From: a virus
DNA length: 54,188 nt
Virus record (IMG/VR): IMGVR_UViG_3300034220_000043
Span: 1 to 54,188 of that record
Direction: 5' to 3' (one strand)
Position 1 is the first letter of the stretch, and each line of letters starts with the position of its first letter. A program made the position numbers and the translations under genes. Of this stretch, positions 1 through 43,725 are shown one piece after another. Under the pieces are notes generated by a model. That model had not been told where the DNA came from and did no database searches. It saw nothing but the letters and a program-made list of their open reading frames with translations.

Positions 1-85
1 AGTCGGCTTCCTGCCGGTCGACGCCGAGACCTGCGCCGATGCGATCCTGCGAGATCCTCGCGTACACCGCTGCGCGCCGCTTCAC
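1..85 (-). pseudogene. Duplicated 5' end of the serine integrase gene (partial)
   Basis: The reverse strand from position 85 reads the GTG start and first 28 codons of the integrase that lies complete at 51139-52512, then stops at the window edge. It is the same sequence as the right-hand copy and need not be a second gene: in a circularised phage it would be the same gene. It marks where attP lies, immediately upstream of int, as is usual for phage serine integrases. Confidence 0.8.
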
Positions 86-240: not shown

Positions 241-1050
241 CTACCGTCGCATCACGGCGAGGCCCCGGTAGTTGGCCGTCCGCATCTTCCACGCCGGGTA
301 ACCCAGCTCGGTGAGCGCCATCCCGAACCGGGTCTCGGTCGGCACCTCGTCGGCGTGCGCGCGGGCCCAGGCCGAGAACGCGGTGTAGAGCTTGCGGCTC
401 GACGTGCCCATCGCGTGCGCCCCGCAGCAGCGCTGCACCCACTCCTGCACGAGCGCGGTCTCCGAGCGCGCGGTGGGCGGCGCGGGCAGGGTGTGCGGCA
501 GATGCACACCCCCGGTGGCCTGCGTGGAGGGTTCGCCGAGCGGACGGACACTGGGCGCGACCTGCGGTTGAGCGCCGGAGAGCAGAGCGGCGATCTGCGC
601 GAGCTGCCCCTCGGCCGCGGCGGCCCTGGACACCAGGTCCTGCACGAGCGCCACCGGGTCGACGACCGTCACGGTCTGGGCGGGCTGCTGCGCTACCTCC
701 GCCTCCCGCGTGCGCACCGCGAAGTACGCCTGGGCCGCAGCGATCTCCGGCTTGTTCGGGTCGCCGTTCATCGCGACGAGGTACGCCGCGAAGCGGGTGA
801 GGTCGTAGTCGGTCAGTGGACGGTTGCCGTTGATCTTCTGGGATCGCAGGAAATTGCTGGTCACGTCCATGCCGACGTTCTCCGCGGCGCGCATGGCGCG
901 GTTCAGCGGGACCTCGAAGTTCTCCCAGCGCGCGTAGTTCGTCAGCGTCTGCAGGTCGCGGGCGGACCACGTCTCCACGCCCTGCTCGTTGACGCTGCGG
1001 ATCGAGTCGAACGGCGAGGCGCCGCCGGTGCGGTCGAGGGTGGTGTTCAC
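241..1050 (-). CDS. DinD-like phage antirepressor with a primase-type C-terminal domain
   Basis: 269 residues. The N-terminal part (about 10-125) matches the DNA-damage-inducible protein D / phage antirepressor type: SPFDSIR, WSARDLQTL and YLVAMNGDPNKP are seen. After a variable linker, residues about 216-269 (LYTAFSAW ... ANYRGLAV) resemble the C-terminal winged-helix end of this phage's own primase-helicase. The GTG start at 1050 overlaps the stop of the upstream protease gene (GTGA) and has GAAGGAG just before it, which decides the start over longer in-frame extensions. Proteins of this type interfere with phage repressors or act in the SOS response; the role here is inferred. Two other long minus-strand frames over this region are out of register and lack family features. 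Confidence 0.75.
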   Translation of the reverse strand: MNTTLDRTGGASPFDSIRSVNEQGVETWSARDLQTLTNYARWENFEVPLNRAMRAAENVGMDVTSNFLRSQKINGNRPLTDYDLTRFAAYLVAMNGDPNKPEIAAAQAYFAVRTREAEVAQQPAQTVTVVDPVALVQDLVSRAAAAEGQLAQIAALLSGAQPQVAPSVRPLGEPSTQATGGVHLPHTLPAPPTARSETALVQEWVQRCCGAHAMGTSSRKLYTAFSAWARAHADEVPTETRFGMALTELGYPAWKMRTANYRGLAVMRR

Positions 1051-1409
1051 GTCGTCTCCTTCGGGGTGGTGCGGATGCGGGCTGCGTGCTCGATCTCCAG
1101 GGTGAGGCGCTCGACCTCGACCTCCTCGACCGCGGCGTTCTCCACGCCGGCTGGGCCGCGCAGCAGGTGCAGGAGCTCGTGCACCAGGGTCGGTCGCCAC
1201 TCCTCGTCGGGGAGCCCGGCGTCCAGCTCGATGCTCTGCGTGGCGAACCAGGTGCGGCCCATGAAGCCGACATCGCTGAGGTCGGCCACGCGGATGGTGA
1301 CCTCGCCGCGACGGGCGAGCACCTCGCGCAGCACGAGCGCGATGGGCAGGACGTCGGCGAGGGACGGGGGTTCCGCGGGCACGGCGGAACCAGGGATGAT
1401 GGTGCTCAC
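1047..1409 (-). CDS. ImmA/IrrE-like HExxH metalloprotease (left copy)
   Basis: 120 residues with a zinc-protease signature HELLHL near residue 76, followed by LRGPAG and an acidic EEVEVERL segment. The same layout (HELMHL, KRGP, EEEEVQRE) is present in the protein at 50645-51142, so the two are probably paralogues. ImmA/IrrE-type proteases cleave or inactivate repressors of mobile elements. The GTG start at 1409 is preceded by GGAGG at good spacing. The gene is translationally coupled to the antirepressor behind it, so both probably act together on lysogeny control. It lacks a recognisable DNA-binding domain. Confidence 0.65.
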   Translation of the reverse strand: MSTIIPGSAVPAEPPSLADVLPIALVLREVLARRGEVTIRVADLSDVGFMGRTWFATQSIELDAGLPDEEWRPTLVHELLHLLRGPAGVENAAVEEVEVERLTLEIEHAARIRTTPKETT

Positions 1410-33116: not shown

Positions 33117-36100
33117 TCACACCGAGTCCTGCCACGCGTACGAGGGCTCGCTCGGGTCGGCCACGATCGACACCCCGAGCAGCTCGGTCTCCATGCACCG
33201 CACCAGCTCGGCGGTCGCCTCAGCGGCGTCCTCGGCGGGCACGAACACGTCGAGCTCGTCGTGCACGGGCAGCAGCGTGCAGGTTCCCCAGCGGGTGTCG
33301 CGCCAGCGCACGAGGGTGTCGACGAGCAGCTCGCGGGCGGTGCCCTGGATGCAGTAGTTGGGCCCCTTGTGCGGGTACTCGCGCGGCAGGTGGATCACCC
33401 GGCCCGAGTAGCTCGGGTACTGGGTGGCGCCGCGCTTCACGGCCTCGCGGATGGACGCCGACCACGCGGCCAGGCCGGGGGTCAGCCCGTCGAGGGTGTC
33501 GATGACGGCCTGCATGACGTCGTGGCCGACGCCGACCTGGGTGGCGAGGGTGGAGATCCCGCCGCCGTAGATCCGGCCGAACACGCCCCGCTTGGCGATG
33601 TACCGGTTGGCCTTGGTCGCGCCCTCGCCCCAGACCTGGCGGGCGATCTCGCCGTGCAGGTCGCGGCCCTCGGCGAGGAACGCCAGGAGCGTCGGGTCCT
33701 GGCTCAGCGCGGCGGCCACGCGCAACTCGACCCCGGAGAAGTCGGCGCCGATCATGAGCTGGCCGGGGTCGGCGGTGATGCAGGCCCGGACCCCGCCCTC
33801 GCGGGAGAGCTGCTGCAGGTTGGGTCGCACGCAGCTCATGCGGCCGGTGTCGGTGCCGAGGGTGTAGACCGTCGGGCGGGCGCGGCCGTCGCCCCGCTCG
33901 CACAGCAGCCGGTAGGGCTCGAGGAACAGCCCGAGGGCGGTGTCGTGGTGGCGGTGGTCGAGCACGGCGCCGACCAGCTCCCCGAGCGGGCCCTCAGCGC
34001 CCCGCAGCGGCTCGAGGACGCCGGCGGCGACACTCGGGCGCCCGGTGGCCGTGCGCGGCAGCGGCGCGCCGAGCTGGAGGGCGACCTCGGCCACCTGCTG
34101 GTCCGAGCCGGGGTTCTCCACGCCCAGCGCGCGGACCCGCGCGGCGGCGGCGTCGCGGCCGGCGGTGTGGCGCTCGGTCATCTCGCGGACGTGCTCGGCG
34201 TCGATCCGCACGCCGCGGTGCGCGACCCGCGCGGTCATGCGCTGGGCGAGGCGCTCGCGCTCGTAGACCGCGGCGTCGGGCCGGGGCAGCGCGCGGGCGA
34301 GCGCGGCGGTGTCGAGCACGTCGGAGGCGGCGTAGCGCAGCATCGTGGTCGAGCCGGTCGCCACCTGCGCCCAGCCGGAGCGCTCGGGCGGGGTGTCGAC
34401 CTTCGTCGAGGTGAGCCAGCGCCCGGCCTTCCACAGCGCGGCCCGAGCGGCGTCGGCGGCCGGCGCCGTGGAGGCCGCCCCGAGCACCGCCCCGGCGAGC
34501 GCCTTGAGCCCGGGATCCGAGCCGGTGGACTGCGGGTCGGCGAGCTTGGCCGGGATCACGGTGTCGTGCATCCGGTCCCAGCCGCTCTCGGCGTCGATGA
34601 GCCCGGCGTGGGCCAGCGGCACCAGGTCGGCGGTCGCGGAGTGGGCGTGCAGCACCGGCGCGGCGGCGAGCAGCTCGCGCACCAGGCTGGCGTGGTCGAC
34701 CGGGTGCAGCACCGCGGCGGCGATCTCGTCGCCGAGCTGCACCGAGCGCAGCTCGTAGTCGGCGTGGCCGACCGGGTAGCCGGAGGTCTCCACGTCGACG
34801 GTCAGCGCGCCGGAGCGGGCGAGCGCGGCGCGCACCACCTCGCCGGCCTGGGCCGGGGTGACGGGCAGCGTGTTGCCGGCGCGGTCGACCACGGCGGGCA
34901 GGCCGAGCACCTCGCCCTGCGCGGTGGCGATGGCGTCGAGCCGCTTCTCCTCGGCCAGCTGGCGCCGGGCCTCGGCCTTGCTGATCTTCGCCTCGGTGGC
35001 CCGGGCGGCGGCCTCGGTCCTGCTCACGGAGCGTGGCGTAATCGCCTTCTCCGGCGCCGGGGTCGGCGGTGTGGACGGTCGCGGAGGCGGATTCGTACCC
35101 CCCACACCGTCCACCGCGCCCGCTACCTGGGGGTTCTCGCCTTCTTCGCCTCGGGTGTGGAGGGTCGGAGGGTTGGCCCCTACCGCCCTTCTATGAGTGG
35201 TGTTTTTCCACTGTTCTTCTTCTCCATCTACTGTATGACGAGACCTACCCTCCACACCCTCCACAGGAGATACAAAAACAGGGGGTGACATGGTGTTATC
35301 GGTTGTGGAGGGTACTGCGATAGACCCCCCACCAACCCCCCACAGACCCTCCACACGAGGCGCGAACGGCGAGGCCGAGCCGCCGGGAACGGCCGAGGGC
35401 GCGCCGGGGGCGGGCGCCGAGGCGGCGGGCGGCGGGGTCGGTGTGGAGGGTTGCGGGAAGCCCGGGTCGGCCCGCACCACTAACGGTCTGTAGTTGGCGT
35501 CGCGGCGCCTGAGCACGCCGAAGCCGAGCTCGTTGAGCGCCCGGCCCCAGGCCGTCTCGGTGAGGATCGAGGAGTCCCGGATGCCGGCGTCGCGGCACCA
35601 GCCCCGGAACCCGACGTAGAGCTGGTGCGACCTGGTGCCGTGCTCGTCGGGCTGGACCGACTCGGTGAGCCACTGCCCGAGCACGTCCTGGGAGCCGACG
35701 AGCTCGTCCATGACGAACTGGACGGCGAGCGGCGCGGCCGAGGTGAGGGCGCTGTCGGGGTTGGCCAGCCAGCCGGCGGCCTCGCGCATCAGCAGGGCGA
35801 GCACCCCGGGCGCCTCGGCGGCCCAGCGCGCGCCGCTGAGCGCCTGCCTGCGGGCCCGGACCTCGGCCGGGTCGCCGTTGCACGGCAGCAGCCGGATCCG
35901 GCGGCGCACGGCCGCGTCGGACACCGAGGGCGGGGTGTTGGAGGTGAGCACCAGGGTGTGGGTGGGCCGGAAGGTGATGGGGTTCTGGTTCATGGCGTTG
36001 CCGGTGAGCTCGCCGCCGCCGGTGAGCTGCTTGAGCCGCTCGGTGTTGCGGGTGCCCTCGCGCATGGCCTCGTCGATGAACGACAGCCGCCGGCCCTTGA

Positions 36101-38015
36101 GCGCGAAGACGATGCTGGCGTGGCCCTCGCCGCTGCCGAGGAGGCGGTGGTCGGCGGCGTGGGCGTAGGACCCGAGCACCTCCATGATCAGCGTGATGAG
36201 CGAGGTCTTCCCGGTGCCGCCCTCGCCGAACAGGATGGGCAGCGCGGCGTCGGCGTAGCCGGTGGTGGCGATGGACAGCACGCGCAGCGCCCAGGCGCGG
36301 ACCTCGGGGTCGGGCCACACCGCGGCGAGGAAGGCGTCCCACAGCGGCGTCGGGACGGGCGCGGGGCCCACGCCGGCGGCGACGAGGTGCGGGCCGTGCG
36401 GGTCGAGGTGCGTGGCGATGGTGGGCACCTCGGCGCTGGCGCGCAGGTCCCACGGCCAGCCGCCGGCCCACAGCACGTCGGGCTCGCGGTCGAGGTCGGC
36501 GATGCGGACGGTGGCGGGGTGGCGGCCGCCGTCGGTGTGTCGGCGCATCGTGGCGGCGACCGCGGCCGCGGGCCCGCTGGTCATCATCCGCAGGCGGCGC
36601 TTGTAGGCGCGCTGCGCCGGGCTGGCGGGCTCGCCCTTGGCCACGGGGGTGGGGTCGCCGTCGGGCATCAGGGCGGCGCACTCCGACACCACCCGCCCGG
36701 CGAGGTCGCCCTCCATCGACCACTGCTCGGCGCCGCGCAGCAGCCACGCGCTCTTGGTGTCGCTGGCGCGGCGGGCCATGTAGAAGCAGCGGCGCAGCAT
36801 CGCGTCGGCGAGCGGGTGGTCGAGGTCGACGCCGGGGTCGAACGCCTCGGTGCCCACGACCTGGGCCCAGGACGGGTCGACGAGCTTGGGCGGCAGCTGC
36901 AGGTGCAGCGGCTCGAAGGGCTCGGGGTCGTCCTCGCCGGCGCGGCGGTCGTCGACCGGGCGGGGGCGGGCGTCGACGGTGACCCCGGTCAGCCCGGCCC
37001 ACCCGGGGCCGCCGGGCAGGGTGCAGGGGTCGGCGAGGTGCTGGACGCCGCCGAGGACGGTGACGGCCTTGCGGGCGCTGGAGAGCAGCATGCGCTCGAA
37101 CTCGGCGTCGCGGGCCTCCCCGGCGGTGACCGCGGCCCACTGGTCGCGCAGGGCGGGCAGCGCGGCGCCGAGGCCGGCGTGGCCCATGGCCGCGGACTGG
37201 ACGAGGCGGTGCGTGCGGGCGGTCATGGCGTCGTGGCGGGCGCCGACGTCGGGGTCGGCCAGCGCGCGGGCGGTGGCGTCCAGGGCGTCGTACATGACCG
37301 AGCAGGCGGGCCGGTCGTCGGCGCTCAGGGCGGCGAGCAGCGCCTCCCCGCTGGCGTGGCTGGCCGAGGCGGGGGCGGCGTCGGTGGCGCCCTCGCGCAG
37401 CCCGTCGACCCAGGCCGGGGGCAGCTCGGGCAGCTCGCCGGGGGTGGGGAGCCGGGTGGCGGGGGCGCCGTCGGGGGCGTACCAGGTGTAGGCGGTGCCG
37501 ACGTCGCCGTGCGGGGAGGGCCAGACCACGGCGTAGCGGTGGTGGCGCTGGATGATCTCGATGTCGGGGCGCAGCACGGTGGCGTAGCGCCCGGCCGGCA
37601 CGCGGTAGAACCGGATGCGGCTGGGGCCCTGCCCGCGGGCGGTGGAGCTCCACGTGGGCGGCAGCAGCCCCCAGCGCGCTTCGGCGGCGGCGAGGGTCTG
37701 GCCGCCGACCTTCACCTTGCCGCTGGGGGTGGTGTAGTCGTCGACGTCGATGCCGACGATCCCGTCGGGCAGCCGCAGCGCGATGGAGTGCCCGGCGTAG
37801 CCGTTGCCGGCCCAGGCGGCGAGCAGCTCGGCCGAGGTGTCCTGGCCTTCCTCGCCGGTGTAGCCGGTGGGCGGCGGGCTCTTGGTCTCGGCGGGCACGG
37901 GCAGCACGGCGGGCCAGCCGGCGTGGTGGTAGAGCGCGGCCGCGGAGGCGAAGACGGGGGGCGCGGTGGTGGTCACGGGCGGCCGCCGAGCGGGCAGGGG
38001 GACTTCATCGTTCAC
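33117..38015 (-). CDS. Primase-polymerase / SF3 helicase / DNA polymerase I fusion
   Basis: 1,632 residues in one uninterrupted frame from GTG 38015 (GTGA overlap). Residues about 10-240: archaeo-eukaryotic primase-polymerase (IVGIDVDDYT, IEIIQRHHRYAVVW). About 560-780: superfamily 3 helicase with Walker A FGEGGTGKTSL near 597, RLSFIDEAMREG and TLVLTSNTPPS, then a winged-helix end (LYVGFRGW ... DANYRPLVV). About 850-1000: a low-complexity linker. About 1070-1200: 3'-5' exonuclease (LTVDVETSG, HSATADLV). About 1290-1632: family A polymerase with motif A IGADFSGVELRVA, motif B AKRGVFGRIYGGG and motif C PVHDELDVFV. The three activities are normally separate phage proteins. It could prime, unwind and copy phage DNA as one molecule. 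Confidence 0.85.
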   Translation of the reverse strand: MNDEVPLPARRPPVTTTAPPVFASAAALYHHAGWPAVLPVPAETKSPPPTGYTGEEGQDTSAELLAAWAGNGYAGHSIALRLPDGIVGIDVDDYTTPSGKVKVGGQTLAAAEARWGLLPPTWSSTARGQGPSRIRFYRVPAGRYATVLRPDIEIIQRHHRYAVVWPSPHGDVGTAYTWYAPDGAPATRLPTPGELPELPPAWVDGLREGATDAAPASASHASGEALLAALSADDRPACSVMYDALDATARALADPDVGARHDAMTARTHRLVQSAAMGHAGLGAALPALRDQWAAVTAGEARDAEFERMLLSSARKAVTVLGGVQHLADPCTLPGGPGWAGLTGVTVDARPRPVDDRRAGEDDPEPFEPLHLQLPPKLVDPSWAQVVGTEAFDPGVDLDHPLADAMLRRCFYMARRASDTKSAWLLRGAEQWSMEGDLAGRVVSECAALMPDGDPTPVAKGEPASPAQRAYKRRLRMMTSGPAAAVAATMRRHTDGGRHPATVRIADLDREPDVLWAGGWPWDLRASAEVPTIATHLDPHGPHLVAAGVGPAPVPTPLWDAFLAAVWPDPEVRAWALRVLSIATTGYADAALPILFGEGGTGKTSLITLIMEVLGSYAHAADHRLLGSGEGHASIVFALKGRRLSFIDEAMREGTRNTERLKQLTGGGELTGNAMNQNPITFRPTHTLVLTSNTPPSVSDAAVRRRIRLLPCNGDPAEVRARRQALSGARWAAEAPGVLALLMREAAGWLANPDSALTSAAPLAVQFVMDELVGSQDVLGQWLTESVQPDEHGTRSHQLYVGFRGWCRDAGIRDSSILTETAWGRALNELGFGVLRRRDANYRPLVVRADPGFPQPSTPTPPPAASAPAPGAPSAVPGGSASPFAPRVEGLWGVGGGSIAVPSTTDNTMSPPVFVSPVEGVEGRSRHTVDGEEEQWKNTTHRRAVGANPPTLHTRGEEGENPQVAGAVDGVGGTNPPPRPSTPPTPAPEKAITPRSVSRTEAAARATEAKISKAEARRQLAEEKRLDAIATAQGEVLGLPAVVDRAGNTLPVTPAQAGEVVRAALARSGALTVDVETSGYPVGHADYELRSVQLGDEIAAAVLHPVDHASLVRELLAAAPVLHAHSATADLVPLAHAGLIDAESGWDRMHDTVIPAKLADPQSTGSDPGLKALAGAVLGAASTAPAADAARAALWKAGRWLTSTKVDTPPERSGWAQVATGSTTMLRYAASDVLDTAALARALPRPDAAVYERERLAQRMTARVAHRGVRIDAEHVREMTERHTAGRDAAAARVRALGVENPGSDQQVAEVALQLGAPLPRTATGRPSVAAGVLEPLRGAEGPLGELVGAVLDHRHHDTALGLFLEPYRLLCERGDGRARPTVYTLGTDTGRMSCVRPNLQQLSREGGVRACITADPGQLMIGADFSGVELRVAAALSQDPTLLAFLAEGRDLHGEIARQVWGEGATKANRYIAKRGVFGRIYGGGISTLATQVGVGHDVMQAVIDTLDGLTPGLAAWSASIREAVKRGATQYPSYSGRVIHLPREYPHKGPNYCIQGTARELLVDTLVRWRDTRWGTCTLLPVHDELDVFVPAEDAAEATAELVRCMETELLGVSIVADPSEPSYAWQDSV
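35069..35451. repeat. Iteron-like TGTGGAGGGT repeats: candidate replication origin
   Basis: GTGTGGAGGGT or one-base variants occur on the plus strand at 35069-35079 (GGACGGT variant), 35155-35165, 35304-35313 and 35441-35451, and on the minus strand at 35104-35114 (variant), 35247-35257, 35256-35266 and 35346-35356. Copies are read in different frames (PST, VEG, TLH), so the conservation is at DNA level. Between about 35190 and 35310 lies an unusually A+T-rich stretch. Position inside the replication gene recalls the lambda ori in gene O. Confidence 0.65.
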
Positions 38016-39856
38016 GCACCTGTCGGGGAGCAGGGTTCGGTCAGAGCGGGGCCGGCCTGGTCGGGGAGGTTCAGGCCGAGCCGGTGGGCGATGAGGGGCA
38101 GGTAGGTGGGGTCGCGCTCGATGCCGAAGGCCCAGAAGCCCTCGTCGCGGGCGGCCTGCAGGGTGGTGCCGGAGCCGGCGAACGGGTCGAGTACCACCCC
38201 GCCGGGCGGGGTGACCAGCCGGACGAGCCACCGCATGAGCGCGAGCGGCTTCACGGTGGGGTGCGCGACACCGTCGACCTTCGGGCGTTCGGAGGTGGGG
38301 GCCTTCGCGCAGTAGAAGAACCGCGACGCCCCGCCGGAGTCCGCGCCCCGGGCGGGGACGCACTCGGTCTGCCCGGCGAACGCGCCGTACGCGTCGCGGA
38401 ACTTGTCGCTGCCGCGGCGGGTGGGGTTGGCTCCGCTGGTGAGCGCGCCGGTCTGCGCGTCGAGCTCGGCGGCTGCGTCCTCGTCCAGCACCACGTTCGC
38501 CGGCCACCGGCCCTGCTGAACATGGCCTGCCGTACACTTAGGGCATGCCGTGGATCGATCAGCAGGGGTACGTCCGGATGATCCATCAGGGTCGGGAGAC
38601 GCGAAAGCATCGAGTCGTCGCGGAGCAGATGCTCGGGCGCCCTCTCCTGTCGACGGAGCACGTTCACCATCGGAACGGGACGAAGTCGGACAACCGTCCG
38701 GAGAACCTGGAGATCGTGGATAACCGGTCTCACCTGCGCGAGCACTGGCAGGAAGGGCACTACGACCCGCGGGTGAAGCGTCAGACGAAGCCGGAAGCGA
38801 CGTGCTCAGGCTGCGGTCACTTCGGCCGTCTGCGGGCGAAGGGCATGTGCAGCTCGTGTTACTTCCAGGACTACTACCAGCGGCACCCGGAGAAGTGGGC
38901 GGCGTACCAGGCTCGACGCCGACGCGCGTAGCGTCGATGTTCAGCGCGCCCGTCCCGTGCGCCAGCACCGTCGCCGCCACCGTCCCGCCGCACGGCTTGC
39001 GCGCGACGACGATCGGCTCGTGGCCCGGCTTGAGCGCGGTTCCCCAGCCCTGCCAGCGGACAGCGTCCGGCGTCGATTCGCCGACCCGTTCAAGCCTGTT
39101 TTTCGTGGCGTTCCAACCGTCCCGTCCGTCAGCGCGCATGAATCCGACCCCCTCAGCGGGTCGGGTGGCGAACTCGACGCCCGGGGTGCCCTTGCGCCCG
39201 TTGAGGCGCCACACCTCGACGTCGAGCTCCGGGCCTACGCCTAGAAACTCCCGCAGCCAAGGCCACTTATCCAACGGGGGAACTTGCGAGTTTCGGTCAG
39301 GACTGAACCAATATTGAGACACATTGGCAGTGCCAAAGTGTTCGTCGATTTCACGGCGGCTGCGCCCAGACTGGGCGAGGGCGGCGCGAAGGGCTCGGCA
39401 GACAGTCGCCCTAGGATCGACGTCCTCGGTCCGCAGCTTGTCGATCGCCTTGCCCACATCGAGCGACTTCGGGAAGCCGGAGCCGTACAGCCAGGAGATC
39501 GAGTCGCGGATCTCGAACCCGGCCAGCCGCACCGACAGGCCCATGAGGTCGACGGTGCGGGACCCGGCGAACGCGAGCAGGTGCCCGCCTGGCTTGAGCA
39601 CCCGCAGACACTCGTCCCACACCGCCGGCGGCGGCACGAACCCGTCCCACGCCGCCGACATGAACCCGCGCCCGTCCGGGACGTGCTCCCGGTTGCCGGA
39701 GCACCAGGCGGTGACGGCCTGCGCGATGGCGGCCGGGCGGTGCTCGGCGAGGCCGTAGGGCGGGTCGCACACGATGGCGTCGAACTGCTCGTCGGCGAAG
39801 GTCCGCAGCACGTCGAGGCAGTCGCCGTCGAGCAGCACGGGCAGCGGCGCGGTCAT
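38012..39856 (-). CDS. DNA N4/N6 (adenine/cytosine) methyltransferase with antisense HNH insertion
   Basis: 614 residues from ATG 39856 (ATGA overlap). Motif IV DAIVCDPPYGLAEH lies near residue 28 and motif I VVLDPFAGSGTTLQAA near the C-terminus, the beta-class order. VLKPGGHLLAFAGSRT and HPTVKPLALMRWLV are also seen. Between NIDATRV and GRWPANVV, where relatives usually have a short variable stretch, there are about 140 Ser/Pro/Gly-rich residues antisense to a complete HNH gene; the frame stays open. A second A+T-richer patch (about 39235-39350) encodes a further inserted segment (TVCRALRAALAQSGRSRREI). It may protect phage DNA from restriction. Confidence 0.8.
   Translation of the reverse strand: MTAPLPVLLDGDCLDVLRTFADEQFDAIVCDPPYGLAEHRPAAIAQAVTAWCSGNREHVPDGRGFMSAAWDGFVPPPAVWDECLRVLKPGGHLLAFAGSRTVDLMGLSVRLAGFEIRDSISWLYGSGFPKSLDVGKAIDKLRTEDVDPRATVCRALRAALAQSGRSRREIDEHFGTANVSQYWFSPDRNSQVPPLDKWPWLREFLGVGPELDVEVWRLNGRKGTPGVEFATRPAEGVGFMRADGRDGWNATKNRLERVGESTPDAVRWQGWGTALKPGHEPIVVARKPCGGTVAATVLAHGTGALNIDATRVGVEPGTPPTSPGAAGSSPGSNTSCTCPSPADGRSDRSLSTSLPASSDASPAGRSALPASARAGETGYPRSPGSPDGCPTSSRSDGERAPSTGEGARASAPRRLDAFASPDPDGSSGRTPADRSTACPKCTAGHVQQGRWPANVVLDEDAAAELDAQTGALTSGANPTRRGSDKFRDAYGAFAGQTECVPARGADSGGASRFFYCAKAPTSERPKVDGVAHPTVKPLALMRWLVRLVTPPGGVVLDPFAGSGTTLQAARDEGFWAFGIERDPTYLPLIAHRLGLNLPDQAGPALTEPCSPTGA
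38545..38931 (+). CDS. HNH homing endonuclease, antisense inside the methyltransferase gene
   Basis: 128 residues. The HNH motif is clear: HRVVAEQMLGRPL, EHVHHRNGTKSDNRPENLEI, then a C-terminal zinc finger (CSGCGHFGRLRAKGMCSSCY). Composition is visibly less G+C-rich than the flanks. TACACT at 38533-38538 lies six bases before the ATG, suggesting its own leaderless promoter. It is encoded on the plus strand, opposite to every other early gene, entirely within the methyltransferase frame. Such genes spread by cutting uninserted alleles. Confidence 0.85.
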   Translation: MPWIDQQGYVRMIHQGRETRKHRVVAEQMLGRPLLSTEHVHHRNGTKSDNRPENLEIVDNRSHLREHWQEGHYDPRVKRQTKPEATCSGCGHFGRLRAKGMCSSCYFQDYYQRHPEKWAAYQARRRRA

Positions 39857-40320
39857 CGCGTACCGGCCCGGCGGCTCAGCGGGTCGGGGAGCCCGCAGTC
39901 GGAGGCGGCCGCGAACAGGCTGTGACGCCCGGCGTCGGCGGCGTGCGGCATGCCCTTGACGAGCAGCCCGGCCGCGATGAGGCGGCGGTCGGTCGCCCAC
40001 GGCTTCACCTCGGACGCGGACCGCAGCACGACGCGCATGCCCCGGTCGCCGGCCCAGGCCTGCAGCGCGCCGATGAGGTCGCGGGCGGTGCGGCCGCCGG
40101 CGGGGGTGGAGGAGCGCCCGGCGCGGGGCCCGACGACGAACGCCTCGACGGCCAGCAGCACCTCGGCGGGGTCCTGGGCGCCGAGCAGCATCTCGACGGT
40201 GTCGAGCACCAGCTCGGGGGTGACCTGCGCCAGGGCCGCGGGGCGCCAGGCGTCGAGGTCGATGCGGGCCAGGCCGGTGGTCGAGCCCGGGTCGACGCCG
40301 ATCACGGTGCGGATCTTCAT
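39853..40320 (-). CDS. RuvC-like Holliday junction resolvase
   Basis: 155 residues from ATG 40320. VIGVDPGSTTGLARID at the start holds the first catalytic Asp of the RNase H fold; VLLAVEAFVVG supplies the Glu; AADAGRHSLFAAA gives the terminal Asp. Phage RuvC-like enzymes resolve branched DNA before packaging. The gene is coupled to both methyltransferase genes. Confidence 0.75.
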   Translation of the reverse strand: MKIRTVIGVDPGSTTGLARIDLDAWRPAALAQVTPELVLDTVEMLLGAQDPAEVLLAVEAFVVGPRAGRSSTPAGGRTARDLIGALQAWAGDRGMRVVLRSASEVKPWATDRRLIAAGLLVKGMPHAADAGRHSLFAAASDCGLPDPLSRRAGTR

Positions 40321-41642
40321 GCCGCCACCGCCAGGCGCTGCGCGAGGTGGCCCAGCAGGTAGCGGAACGCGGCCGCGCCCTGCTGCGGCACGACGCCGTC
40401 GCCGAGCAGCGACAGGGCAGCGTTGCGGTGGCCGTTGGCGCGGGCCGCGAGGTCGGGGACGTCGCACACCCAGCCCTGGGGCAGGCCCATCATCCACTCG
40501 ACGAACGGCGGCGCGAGCTGGAAGCCGCCGCGGGGGCCGAGCTGGGTGGGGGCCGGGGCCTCGCGGTCGAACATGCAGCCCCAGCGGGCGACGGCCTCCG
40601 CGTAGACGCCCCAGTCGGCCGGCGGCGCGGCGGCGACCGCGATCTCGCGGGACCAGTCGCGGAGTCCCTCGCCGGTCAGCCAGCCCCGATCGCCGCCGGC
40701 ATCCGCCTCGCGCGGGGTGGGGATCAGGGTCACGGCAACGTCGCGCAGCCGCGGTCCGTGGTCGTTCCCGCCGTGGGTGCGCCGCTCGGGAACCGCGCGC
40801 ACGCCGCCCTGACCGTCCGTTCGGATCGGCGTAGGCAGTAGCGTCACCGCGGTCTGCAGGTTCAGCCCGCCGTCGCGGCCCGAGGTCCCGGCCCCGGTGG
40901 TCATGGACTGCGTCGGCGTCGGGAGCAGGGTGACGGCCTCGCGCAGCGACATGGGCACGACGGGCTGGGCCCGTACGCCGGCGCGGCTGTCCTGGTGGGT
41001 CGGCGTGGGCAGCAGGGTCAGGTGACCGCGCCCAGCAGGGTGGGGTTGCCCCGGCCGTACGTCATCGATGAGCGCTCGGCGTCGGAGCAGGCCGGCGTCG
41101 GCAGCAGCATCGATGGCGACGACGAAGCACCGGGCCCGCTGGTGGCAGCCCCAGACTCCGGGGTCGGAAGCGCGCTGCACCCGCCAGGACCCCACGTACC
41201 CGAGGGCGGCAAGGCCTCGGACAACTCGGCGAAGCTCACCGTTGCTGGTGATGCGGGCAACGTTCTCGCCGAAGAAGATCCGCGGCCGCGTCTCGGCGAT
41301 GGCGCGGGCGACGTTGGGCCAGAGGGCACGGGGGTCCGCCTCTCCCAGCCGCTTGCCGGCTGAGCTGTGCGGCTGGCACGGCCAGGAGGCGGCCAGCACG
41401 TCGATGGGCTCGAGGCCGGCGGCCTCGGCGGTGACGGGCCCGATCACCGGGAAGGCGCGGGCCATGTTCCCGAGGTTGGGCACGTCGGGGTGGCGGTGGC
41501 GCAGCAGCGCGACGGAGGCGGGCTTGATGTCGGAGTGCCAGGCGAAGCGCACCGACAGGTCGAAGTCGGCGAGCGCCCGGGCGACGGCCATGTCGAGCCC
41601 GCCGGCGCCGGTGAACAGGGACCCGCCGGTCAGCTCGGTCAC
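40317..41642 (-). CDS. DNA cytosine-5 methyltransferase
   Basis: 441 residues from GTG 41642. Motif I SLFTGAGGLDMAV, motif IV with catalytic Cys in LAASWPCQPHSSAGKR and motif VI IFFGENVARI are present. A middle target-recognition region contains four spaced LLPTP-type elements (LTLLPTPTHQD, VTLLPTPTQSM, VTLLPTPIRTD, VTLIPTPREAD). The end has HRNAALSLLGDGVVPQQG, motif X-like. It probably masks phage DNA from host restriction. Coupled to the gene upstream by GTGA. Confidence 0.85.
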   Translation of the reverse strand: MTELTGGSLFTGAGGLDMAVARALADFDLSVRFAWHSDIKPASVALLRHRHPDVPNLGNMARAFPVIGPVTAEAAGLEPIDVLAASWPCQPHSSAGKRLGEADPRALWPNVARAIAETRPRIFFGENVARITSNGELRRVVRGLAALGYVGSWRVQRASDPGVWGCHQRARCFVVAIDAAADAGLLRRRALIDDVRPGQPHPAGRGHLTLLPTPTHQDSRAGVRAQPVVPMSLREAVTLLPTPTQSMTTGAGTSGRDGGLNLQTAVTLLPTPIRTDGQGGVRAVPERRTHGGNDHGPRLRDVAVTLIPTPREADAGGDRGWLTGEGLRDWSREIAVAAAPPADWGVYAEAVARWGCMFDREAPAPTQLGPRGGFQLAPPFVEWMMGLPQGWVCDVPDLAARANGHRNAALSLLGDGVVPQQGAAAFRYLLGHLAQRLAVAA

Positions 41643-41935
41643 GACGCCGCTCCGTCCTGCTGCGCGGCGACGAGCGCGCGCCGGTAGGGCATGGCCCGCC
41701 GCGCCAGCCGGCTGTGCGCCCAGGTGCCCAGCTCGGCCCACGCGCGGCCGTCCCCGTCCTGGGCCCAGACCAGCTCGGCGAGCTGGTGGTCGTGCGCGGT
41801 GGGCCGGTCGGCTGCGGCCCAGGCGGCGAGGCGGGCCAGCAGCGAGGGTCGGGCTGGCCGGTCGTCCCGGCGGGCGCGGGCGGTGAGCTCCTCGGCCTGG
41901 TGCTGCACGAAGGTCCACGGGTCGGTGGTGGTCAT
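41639..41935 (-). CDS. Small helical protein between helicase and methyltransferase
   Basis: 98 residues from ATG 41935. Helical, Ala/Arg-rich with several Trp (VQHQAEELTARARRD, LLARLAAWAAADRPT, LAELVWAQDGDGRAW). Ends overlap both neighbours. Not recognised; possibly a partner of the SNF2 helicase or the methyltransferase. Confidence 0.5.
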   Translation of the reverse strand: MTTTDPWTFVQHQAEELTARARRDDRPARPSLLARLAAWAAADRPTAHDHQLAELVWAQDGDGRAWAELGTWAHSRLARRAMPYRRALVAAQQDGAAS

Positions 41936-43725
41936 GCCGCTGTCTTCTTCCGTCGTCGGAGGTCCCGCACGCCCGCGCCACCGAGCAGTTCGGCGACGAC
42001 GCGGGGGTCCTGGACGAGGTCGGAGAGCTGGCCGGCGCGCTCGACGAGGACCGACCGCACTCGCGACTCGATGGTGTTGACGGCGACGACGTCGACGATC
42101 TCGACGCTGTCGTGGATCTCGGAGCCGATGCGGTGCTGGCGGTCCTCGGCCTGCAGGGCTTCGACGAGCGACCAGGGCCGCTGCAGGAACACCGCGGTGG
42201 ACGCGGCGGTGAGGGTGATGCCGACGCCGCCGGCGCCGGTGGTGACGCAGATGAGGTCGAGCTCGCCGCGCTGGAAGGCGTCGACGTGGGCGGTGCGCTC
42301 CTTGGCGCTCTGCCCGCCGACGACGTACCCGACGCGGTAGCCGGCGGCGGTGGCGGCCTGGCCGGCCAGCATCATGAGCTGCCGCGACGGGGCGTAGGCG
42401 GCGACTTGGGTGCCGGGGCGTTCGGCCATCACCTCGAGCAGCTCGTCGACCTTCCAGGACGGGGCGCGAAGGGTGACGTGCTGGTGCTGGCGCTCGACGG
42501 GCATCCCGGTGTGCGGGTCGGTGACGATCTCGGTGGTGGTCTCGACGTCGGCGGCCGCGGAGGCGAGCTGGGCGAGGCGGGTCATCTGGGCGAGCACACC
42601 CATGACGGACAGCTCCCCGCCGTCGGGCAGCTCGGCGAGCATGTCGGCCTCGAGGGCGTCGTAGGCCTTGCGGTACTCGGTGGGGAGCTCGACCTGCCGG
42701 ACGCTGTAGACCTTCGGCGGGAGCTCGGTGAGCACGTCGGCCTTGCTGACGCGGCGGTACTGGCCGAGCAGGGTCTGCCGGAACTCGGGCTCGGCGTGCG
42801 GGTTGAGGCCGAGCACGGTGCTGGCGTAGTCGCCCTGGACGGTGTCGCAGTAGCGACCGATCCAGCGCTCCCGCGATGGGTGCGCCGCGGGGCACATCGC
42901 GTACAGGGCGGGCCACAAGTCGCCGGGGTGGTGGGTGATGGGGGTGCCGGACAGCCCGACGAACGCCGAGGCGCGGGCCGCGAGGCGGCGCACGGCGCGG
43001 CTCTGCTCGGTGGCCTGGCCCTTCAGCTTGTGCACCTCGTCGGCGACCACGAACCGGGCGCCGAGCGCGATCAGCGGGTTGTGCCTTGGGTCGGTGTCGG
43101 AGGCGTCCATGCGGGCGGTGCCGTAGCTGGCGACGTAGACGTCGGCGAGGCCGATGAGCTTGCGTCGCCGGGCCGGGGTGCCGCGCCACGCGAGGGCGCG
43201 CCAGCTCGGGGCCCACCGGCGGACGTGCTCGATCCAGGAGTCCGCGACGGCGGGCGGGCAGATGACGAGGACGGGCAGCACCGGGTGCCCGGCGGCGTGC
43301 CGCTCGACGAGGCCGAGGATGGTGGACACGGTCTTGCCTGTGCCCTGCTCGTCGAACAGGAGCGCCGACCCGACGGCGCCGATCATGCAGGCGCCGGCGA
43401 CCTGGTAGCTGCGGGGCGTGAGCCCCGGCGGCGGGGTGACGGCGAGCTCGGTGGGTGGGGCGGTGCGGGCGCGCACCTGGTCGGCGAGCCAGGCGGTGAG
43501 CGCGGGCCCGGCCACCCACGAGGCGCCGAAGGTGCGGGCCAGCTGGATGGCGGCGGGCCAGCTCGCCGGGCACTGCATCGCGCCGGCGGGGGTGGTGGGC
43601 TTGAGCAGCGGGGTGAGGGTCTGCAGCTTCTGGGCGGCCTGCGCGACCTCGGCGTCCTCCCCGGCGGCGATGAGGATGATGCGCTCGCGGTCGGCGGTGA
43701 GCTCGCCGACGATGGTGACGGTCAC
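41932..43725 (-). CDS. SNF2-family DNA helicase/ATPase
   Basis: 597 residues from GTG 43725. Walker A LLFDEQGTGKTVSTILGL near residue 128, DEAH-type box FVVADEVHKLKG, motif III FVGLSGTPI, and helicase C-terminal motifs VCVTTGAGGVGITLTAA and QAEDRQHRIGS. An N-terminal region of about 90 residues precedes the motor. Phages use such SNF2 proteins in replication or against host DNA-bound defences; the exact task is unknown. It lies in a row of DNA-modifying genes. Confidence 0.85.
   Translation of the reverse strand: MTVTIVGELTADRERIILIAAGEDAEVAQAAQKLQTLTPLLKPTTPAGAMQCPASWPAAIQLARTFGASWVAGPALTAWLADQVRARTAPPTELAVTPPPGLTPRSYQVAGACMIGAVGSALLFDEQGTGKTVSTILGLVERHAAGHPVLPVLVICPPAVADSWIEHVRRWAPSWRALAWRGTPARRRKLIGLADVYVASYGTARMDASDTDPRHNPLIALGARFVVADEVHKLKGQATEQSRAVRRLAARASAFVGLSGTPITHHPGDLWPALYAMCPAAHPSRERWIGRYCDTVQGDYASTVLGLNPHAEPEFRQTLLGQYRRVSKADVLTELPPKVYSVRQVELPTEYRKAYDALEADMLAELPDGGELSVMGVLAQMTRLAQLASAAADVETTTEIVTDPHTGMPVERQHQHVTLRAPSWKVDELLEVMAERPGTQVAAYAPSRQLMMLAGQAATAAGYRVGYVVGGQSAKERTAHVDAFQRGELDLICVTTGAGGVGITLTAASTAVFLQRPWSLVEALQAEDRQHRIGSEIHDSVEIVDVVAVNTIESRVRSVLVERAGQLSDLVQDPRVVAELLGGAGVRDLRRRKKTAA

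Follow-up and report, generated by a model that had tools for sequence, protein, structure and literature searches.

Through computational analysis of a 54,188-nt stretch of viral DNA (IMG/VR record IMGVR_UViG_3300034220_000043, referred to below as the window), a gene has been identified that probably specifies a single-polypeptide phage replicase, with the DNA of its helicase–polymerase linker doubling as the phage replication origin. Profile and structure-model comparisons confirm that the encoded protein combines an AEP primase, a pRN1-like helix bundle, a D5/P4-type SF3 helicase with a winged helix, a 3'-5' exonuclease and a family A polymerase. The original prediction had read this gene as a one-polypeptide replisome, and that reading stands; the iteron array in the linker was overlooked by it.

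The gene is located on the minus strand at 33117–38015 and forms one uninterrupted open reading frame of 1,632 codons, exactly as predicted, from a GTG at 38015 (an alternative GTG lies at 37977) to a stop at 33117. In the sequence GTGA, this start codon and the stop codon of the methyltransferase gene upstream overlap. Domains were assigned with Pfam and NCBIfam profiles and with AF2 models built from family alignments, and both agree with the domain set that had been proposed, to which the models add a helix bundle: (i) the AEP primase-polymerase domain (37401–37958, residues ~20–205) matches the Prim-Pol profile PF09250 at residues 28–190 (1.3e-17), and its model aligns with pRN1 ORF904 (1rni; Z 10.8, 166 residues aligned); (ii) the helix-bundle domain, the candidate iteron reader (37041–37325, residues ~231–325), is recognised in the joint primase and helix-bundle model compared with 9aam (40–370; Z 10.4, 266 residues), the model of residues ~18–323 resembling the pRN1 primase including its helix bundle; (iii) the D5-type N domain and SF3 AAA+ helicase (35736–36818, residues ~400–760, Walker A at 597–604) match TIGR01613, the P4-type primase C-terminal profile, at residues 555–812 (115.4 bits against a cut-off of 108.7) and DUF5906 at residues 595–705; (iv) the helicase C-terminal winged-helix region (35466–35738, residues ~760–850) is placed by the AF2 model, secondary structure and alignment; (v) the 3'-5' exonuclease domain (34287–34841, residues 1059–1243) matches DNA_pol_A_exo1 (PF01612) with a score over the cut-off; and (vi) the family A polymerase core (33183–34154, residues 1288–1611) matches DNA_pol_A (PF00476, 3e-43) and has Phe at the 762 position. 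The best folds for the model of residues 395–868 are D5-type hexameric helicases, namely AsfvPrimPol (8iqi, E 4e-19) and MPXV E5/VACV D5. Sequence matches of the polymerase in the PDB include Taq, Klenow and PREX (7sxl, 5dku); the same search with the AEP part alone returned nothing relevant.

Active sites had been described as intact in every domain, which holds for the exonuclease and polymerase and only in part for the AEP domain. By eye, motifs Exo I–III (D1074/E1076, D1130, Y1228/D1232) and polymerase motifs A, B and C (D1425; R1471/K1475/F1479; H1585-D1586) are all present. Among 25 homologues, D90 and D92 of AEP motif I are invariant and the acidic E153 of motif III is nearly so. The motif II histidine (sxH) is missing in the window's lineage, which has GPSRIRFYRVP instead of SGGxH; the variant N-terminus of the L049–L069 type possesses it (TPSGGxH). 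Because of this absence, full catalytic competence of the AEP domain is rated lower, while its fold and kinship stand. Judged from these motifs and folds, the replicase would be able to prime, unwind and copy DNA.

The linker carries an iteron array, considered here as a candidate replication origin in coding DNA. At most one mismatch from the core ACCCTCCA, 12 copies lie on both strands at 35072–35451 (35072–35079, 35097–35104, 35106–35113, 35158–35165, 35166–35173, 35247–35254, 35256–35263, 35306–35313, 35324–35331, 35335–35342, 35346–35353 and 35444–35451). The AT-richest stretch, a candidate unwinding element at 35204–35243 (40% GC against ~74% in the genome), adjoins the central tandem iteron pair. 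With the form ACCCTCCACA, nine copies at no more than one mismatch, six of them exact, were found in the 633-nt linker, compared with three, none exact, in the remaining 53.6 kb of the window. Since the copies occupy all three reading phases and both strands, selection on the DNA is indicated. The idea that they merely mirror a repeated peptide was rejected on the same grounds, and also because permutations of synonymous codons mostly lose the geometry, scoring 1–4 in most cases with the spacing template described below; first-order shuffles of the window linker score 2/6 at most.

Comparable linker arrays in relatives consist of 8–12 copies of a ~9-bp iteron flanking an AT-rich gap, and at least 11 iteron types occur among the viruses, spacing and orientation being kept while the sequence changes. 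Two array types are represented by ACCCTCCAC and ACCCGTCAC; the sequences in relatives include ACCCTGCAC, ACCCGTCAC, ACCCGTCAT, ACCCGTCAG, ACTGGTCAC, ACCCTTCAC, CCCCTGCAC, ACTGTCCG, ACCCGACAC and ACCCGCCTG, among others. The conserved geometry, in the gene sense, is <(11)<(11)<(19)>(48-49)<(8-9)< gap >(n)>. A sequence-blind template of this spacing scores 5 or 6 out of 6 in 38 linkers plus that of L087, and elsewhere in 1.4 Mb, on both strands, it has zero matches at ≥5/6; because some of the same loci supplied the template, its true-hit count lacks independence, whereas the zero elsewhere is independent. Orientation follows the gap, '<' being found in 180 of the 222 copies to its left and '>' in 63 of the 64 to its right. 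GC content of the gap is 0.53, against 0.72 in helicase coding DNA, and the 60-nt gap is lower in all 33 loci (33/33). About a quarter of the fusions have no clear linker array, for example L030, L032, L050, L058, L063, L065 and L076.

Clustered, spaced repeats adjoining an AT-rich region are thus present, as in iteron origins, and inverted iterons around an AT-rich gap within a replication gene give the locus an origin-like look, by analogy with lambda (PMC3985674). In the split relatives L074 and L072, own iterons (TGACCCA and AGCACACC, respectively) lie in similar order in the short intergenic gap between the primase-helicase and polymerase genes, and the fused frame would thus seem to run across an origin that is intergenic in these relatives. 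For a linker origin, this comparison is the strongest evidence. Since the geometry is kept, the template is unique to linkers and split relatives share the layout, the array very probably serves as the replication origin while being translated in frame. GC skew runs monotonically across the window, with no sign of an origin, and the gene junction of cultured two-gene phages holds no array above shuffles. At L033 10118–10265, the gene of a related primase carries iterons of its own (TGAGTCCCGG) within its 3' end.

In the proposed mechanism, the replicase would bind the iteron array, the SF3 ring would assemble at the AT-rich gap, melt it and prime, and the tethered PolA would extend the primer with proofreading. 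More speculatively, the iterons may also act as priming sites. The commonest iteron types read GTGG or GTGA, and GTG is missing from some types. In pRN1 and NrS-1, the helix bundle reads GTG/GTGA/GTGG in the template and places the first nucleotides of the primer (PMC8076596, PMC8718748). In the arrays, GTGG/GTGA would be on the template strand for synthesis leading outward from the AT gap, leftward for the left array and rightward for the right one; with the iterons so oriented, priming that starts 5' of GTG would proceed outward on both sides. The fullest version of the model is a single-gene replicon in which initiator, primase, helicase and proofreading replicase share one frame and the origin is made of the linker codons; the iteron code would change with the reading domain (AEP/helix bundle) at fixed geometry, and priming from the arrays would diverge from the AT-rich centre. 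This version is put forward tentatively, at slightly below an even chance.

The domain that reads the iterons is suggested, weakly, by two natural recombinant pairs and by weak family-wide statistics to be the helix bundle rather than the winged helix. L015 and L013 are ~93% alike in SF3, exonuclease and polymerase and differ in their iterons; their differences concentrate at residues 181–330 (29 of 60 at 271–330), the SF3 core being free of them or nearly so. L019 and L008 have an identical iteron; they diverge strongly over residues 331–860, winged helix included, and differ by only 3 residues per 30 in 241–330. Across the family, the AEP segment is associated with iteron type (partial Mantel, p 0.006), with local peaks at residues 20–64 and 260–334. 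The AUC for separating iteron types is highest for the AEP domain plus helix bundle (0.71), compared with 0.61 for SF3 (8-nt types); polymerase distance also separates the types somewhat (0.64–0.67). An origin in the linker could instead be read by the SF3 winged helix or by a separate phage protein, which has an appreciable, though less than even, chance of being right. The protein does possess a D5/P4-like winged helix, the distance of which separates the 8-nt types weakly (AUC 0.63). The SF3 winged helix has this role in P4 alpha, and origin binding by such C-terminal domains is a textbook case. However, L008 and L019 share their iteron though their winged helices differ at 56% of positions, and the iterons of L013 and L015 were switched with little change in the helicase.

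The fusion is widespread. Search of IMG/VR and GTDB genomes, isolate genomes among them, yielded 45 dereplicated loci with all domains in a single open reading frame, the window included; for 29 of these, the four window-type probes all match. According to the genome records, the hosts are Actinomycetota: Micromonospora, Nocardioides, Labedaea, Haloactinopolyspora and Jatrophihabitans; a search of sampled Actinomycetes found the helicase in one of 197 genomes, the already-known Labedaea one. In the prophage of Labedaea rhizosphaerae DSM 45361 both the fused gene and the array are intact. The predicted lack of a stop at the helicase–polymerase junction extends to the family, with zero in-frame stops in 43 linkers, whereas the other five frames have 4.1–5.9 per linker each. 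Likewise, none of the 35 relatives compared share a conserved internal start with a ribosome site at the junction, and 23 of 35 proteins have no Met within residues 1000–1071. The stop-free linkers and the lack of a conserved internal start indicate that selection maintains the fused frame. Split close relatives with a conserved polymerase start would have spoken against the original prediction; the close relatives are fused and have no such start. Separate genes were seen only in more distant relatives, namely cultured phages and L072–L075 and L077. By tblastn, 3,834 of 50,697 phage records were matched, and in none of these cultured-phage records is 80% of the replicase covered in one place; the best matches have two separate adjacent genes (six annotated regions inspected). 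No plasmid record covers 80% of the replicase either.

One mRNA and one frame might still give rise to two working proteins, through proteolysis in the linker or internal initiation. The linker is long, proline-rich and poorly conserved, and Plasmodium PREX is processed. The junction data just given, with most of the proteins lacking a Met in this region, count against such a division, as does the survival of the fused frame through exchange of either half, and we regard it as unlikely. Evidence for this exchange comes from the polymerase tree, in which loci with the variant N-terminus are interspersed with window-type ones; the polymerase nearest to that of the window belongs to L058, which carries the other N-terminus. 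The halves thus recombine in or near the linker yet remain fused. In the tree, the true split relatives L072–L075 and L077 neighbour L016, L017 and L023; fission and repeated fusion are accordingly both possible. L023 and L070 were rejected as split relatives, since in both the frame shifts within the exonuclease region or at its end.

Further variants occur within the family. In L025 and L087 the same primase-helicase half is joined to a distant PolA (29–32%) in one open reading frame, and L087 retains the iteron array. L060 (5349–9803) is a PolA fusion in which a DUF3854 N-terminus replaces Prim-Pol. Intein-like insertions are located in the polymerase of the fused replicase of L029 (4971–10535; Hint/HNH) and in the helicase of that of L065 (5259–10973; LAGLIDADG); the L017 polymerase also contains a large insertion.

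Spaced inverted and direct repeats also suit operators and centromeres, and the linker array of a genuine fusion could accordingly be an operator or partition site bound by a regulator. This is improbable, given that the array adjoins replisome domains, an AT-rich gap separates its diverging halves, a similar array stands between the same two genes in split relatives, and no further arrays of the same geometry occur in the loci. The joining of two genes by an assembly or frameshift artefact is refuted by 45 single-ORF members, isolate genomes included; frameshifts do exist in relatives L023 and L070, and none in the window.

One of the closest known systems is the GP55 protein of lactococcal phage 1706, described in 2025 as an unprecedented four-in-one protein; it unites an SF3 helicase, an AEP-type primase, a 3'-5' exonuclease and a polymerase in one chain of 1,317 aa, and primes, unwinds and copies in vitro (PMC12205980). 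It differs from the window protein, in which AEP is N-terminal and PolA C-terminal: GP55 has a family B polymerase and the order helicase–primase–polymerase, and its gene is not reported to hold an origin (PMC12205980). With neither a family B polymerase nor an N-terminal helicase, the window protein is not of the GP55 type. The Plasmodium apicoplast PREX is likewise translated as a single chain with primase, helicase and exonuclease-PolA. PREX is a processed protein of a eukaryotic organelle, with a DnaG/TOPRIM primase and an SF4 helicase; in their place, the window protein has AEP and SF3 domains alongside PolA. The NrS-1 primase-polymerase and pRN1 ORF904 share the arrangement of AEP and helix bundle followed by a helicase, but their chains lack exonuclease and PolA. 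Phages of Microbacterium, Arthrobacter, Curtobacterium and Streptomyces encode a related SF3 helicase, exonuclease and polymerase, adjacent and in the same order, but in two genes, at 27–31% identity and with no iteron array found at the junction. In lambda the origin lies in the middle of gene O, its iterons being inside the coding sequence of the initiator, as in the window (PMC3985674). The role of lambda O ends with initiation and recruitment of the host replisome, whereas the window gene specifies a helicase, a primase and a polymerase as well; unlike lambda ori, the iteron sequence of the present family switches among relatives at fixed spacing. A literature search returned no description of the PolA-fused architecture; an earlier mention is possible, likeliest in the Kazlauskas 2011/2016 surveys of viral replicases.

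Other features of the window include a Bro-N/Ant-like protein (241–1056, minus strand; phrog_63, phrog_8036), whose C-terminal ~100 residues resemble the replicase winged helix (35% over residues 777–875), so that this regulator may bear the same DNA-binding module. At 1–85 (minus strand), the start of an apparent large serine integrase (VKRRAAVYARISQDRIGAGLGVDRQEAD, by eye) is cut by the contig end; the putative integrase suggests a temperate phage. The N6/N4 methyltransferase gene (38012–40000, minus strand) has a long insertion with an antisense HNH_3 endonuclease gene (38545–38931, plus strand), and its frame is open throughout this insertion. A second DNA methyltransferase, of C5 type (40317–41981, minus strand), adjoins it just upstream of the replicase.

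If true, a four-in-one phage replicase would have arisen independently for a second time, in this family with PolA in place of PolB, and the fused gene would hold a naturally occurring origin that has to serve as a protein linker too. The ~11 natural pairings of iteron and protein at constant geometry would form a ready data set on changes of initiator specificity, and a self-contained one-gene unit could be of practical use in DNA amplification. For a phage of soil-type actinobacteria, one gene may thus be a complete DNA-copying kit.
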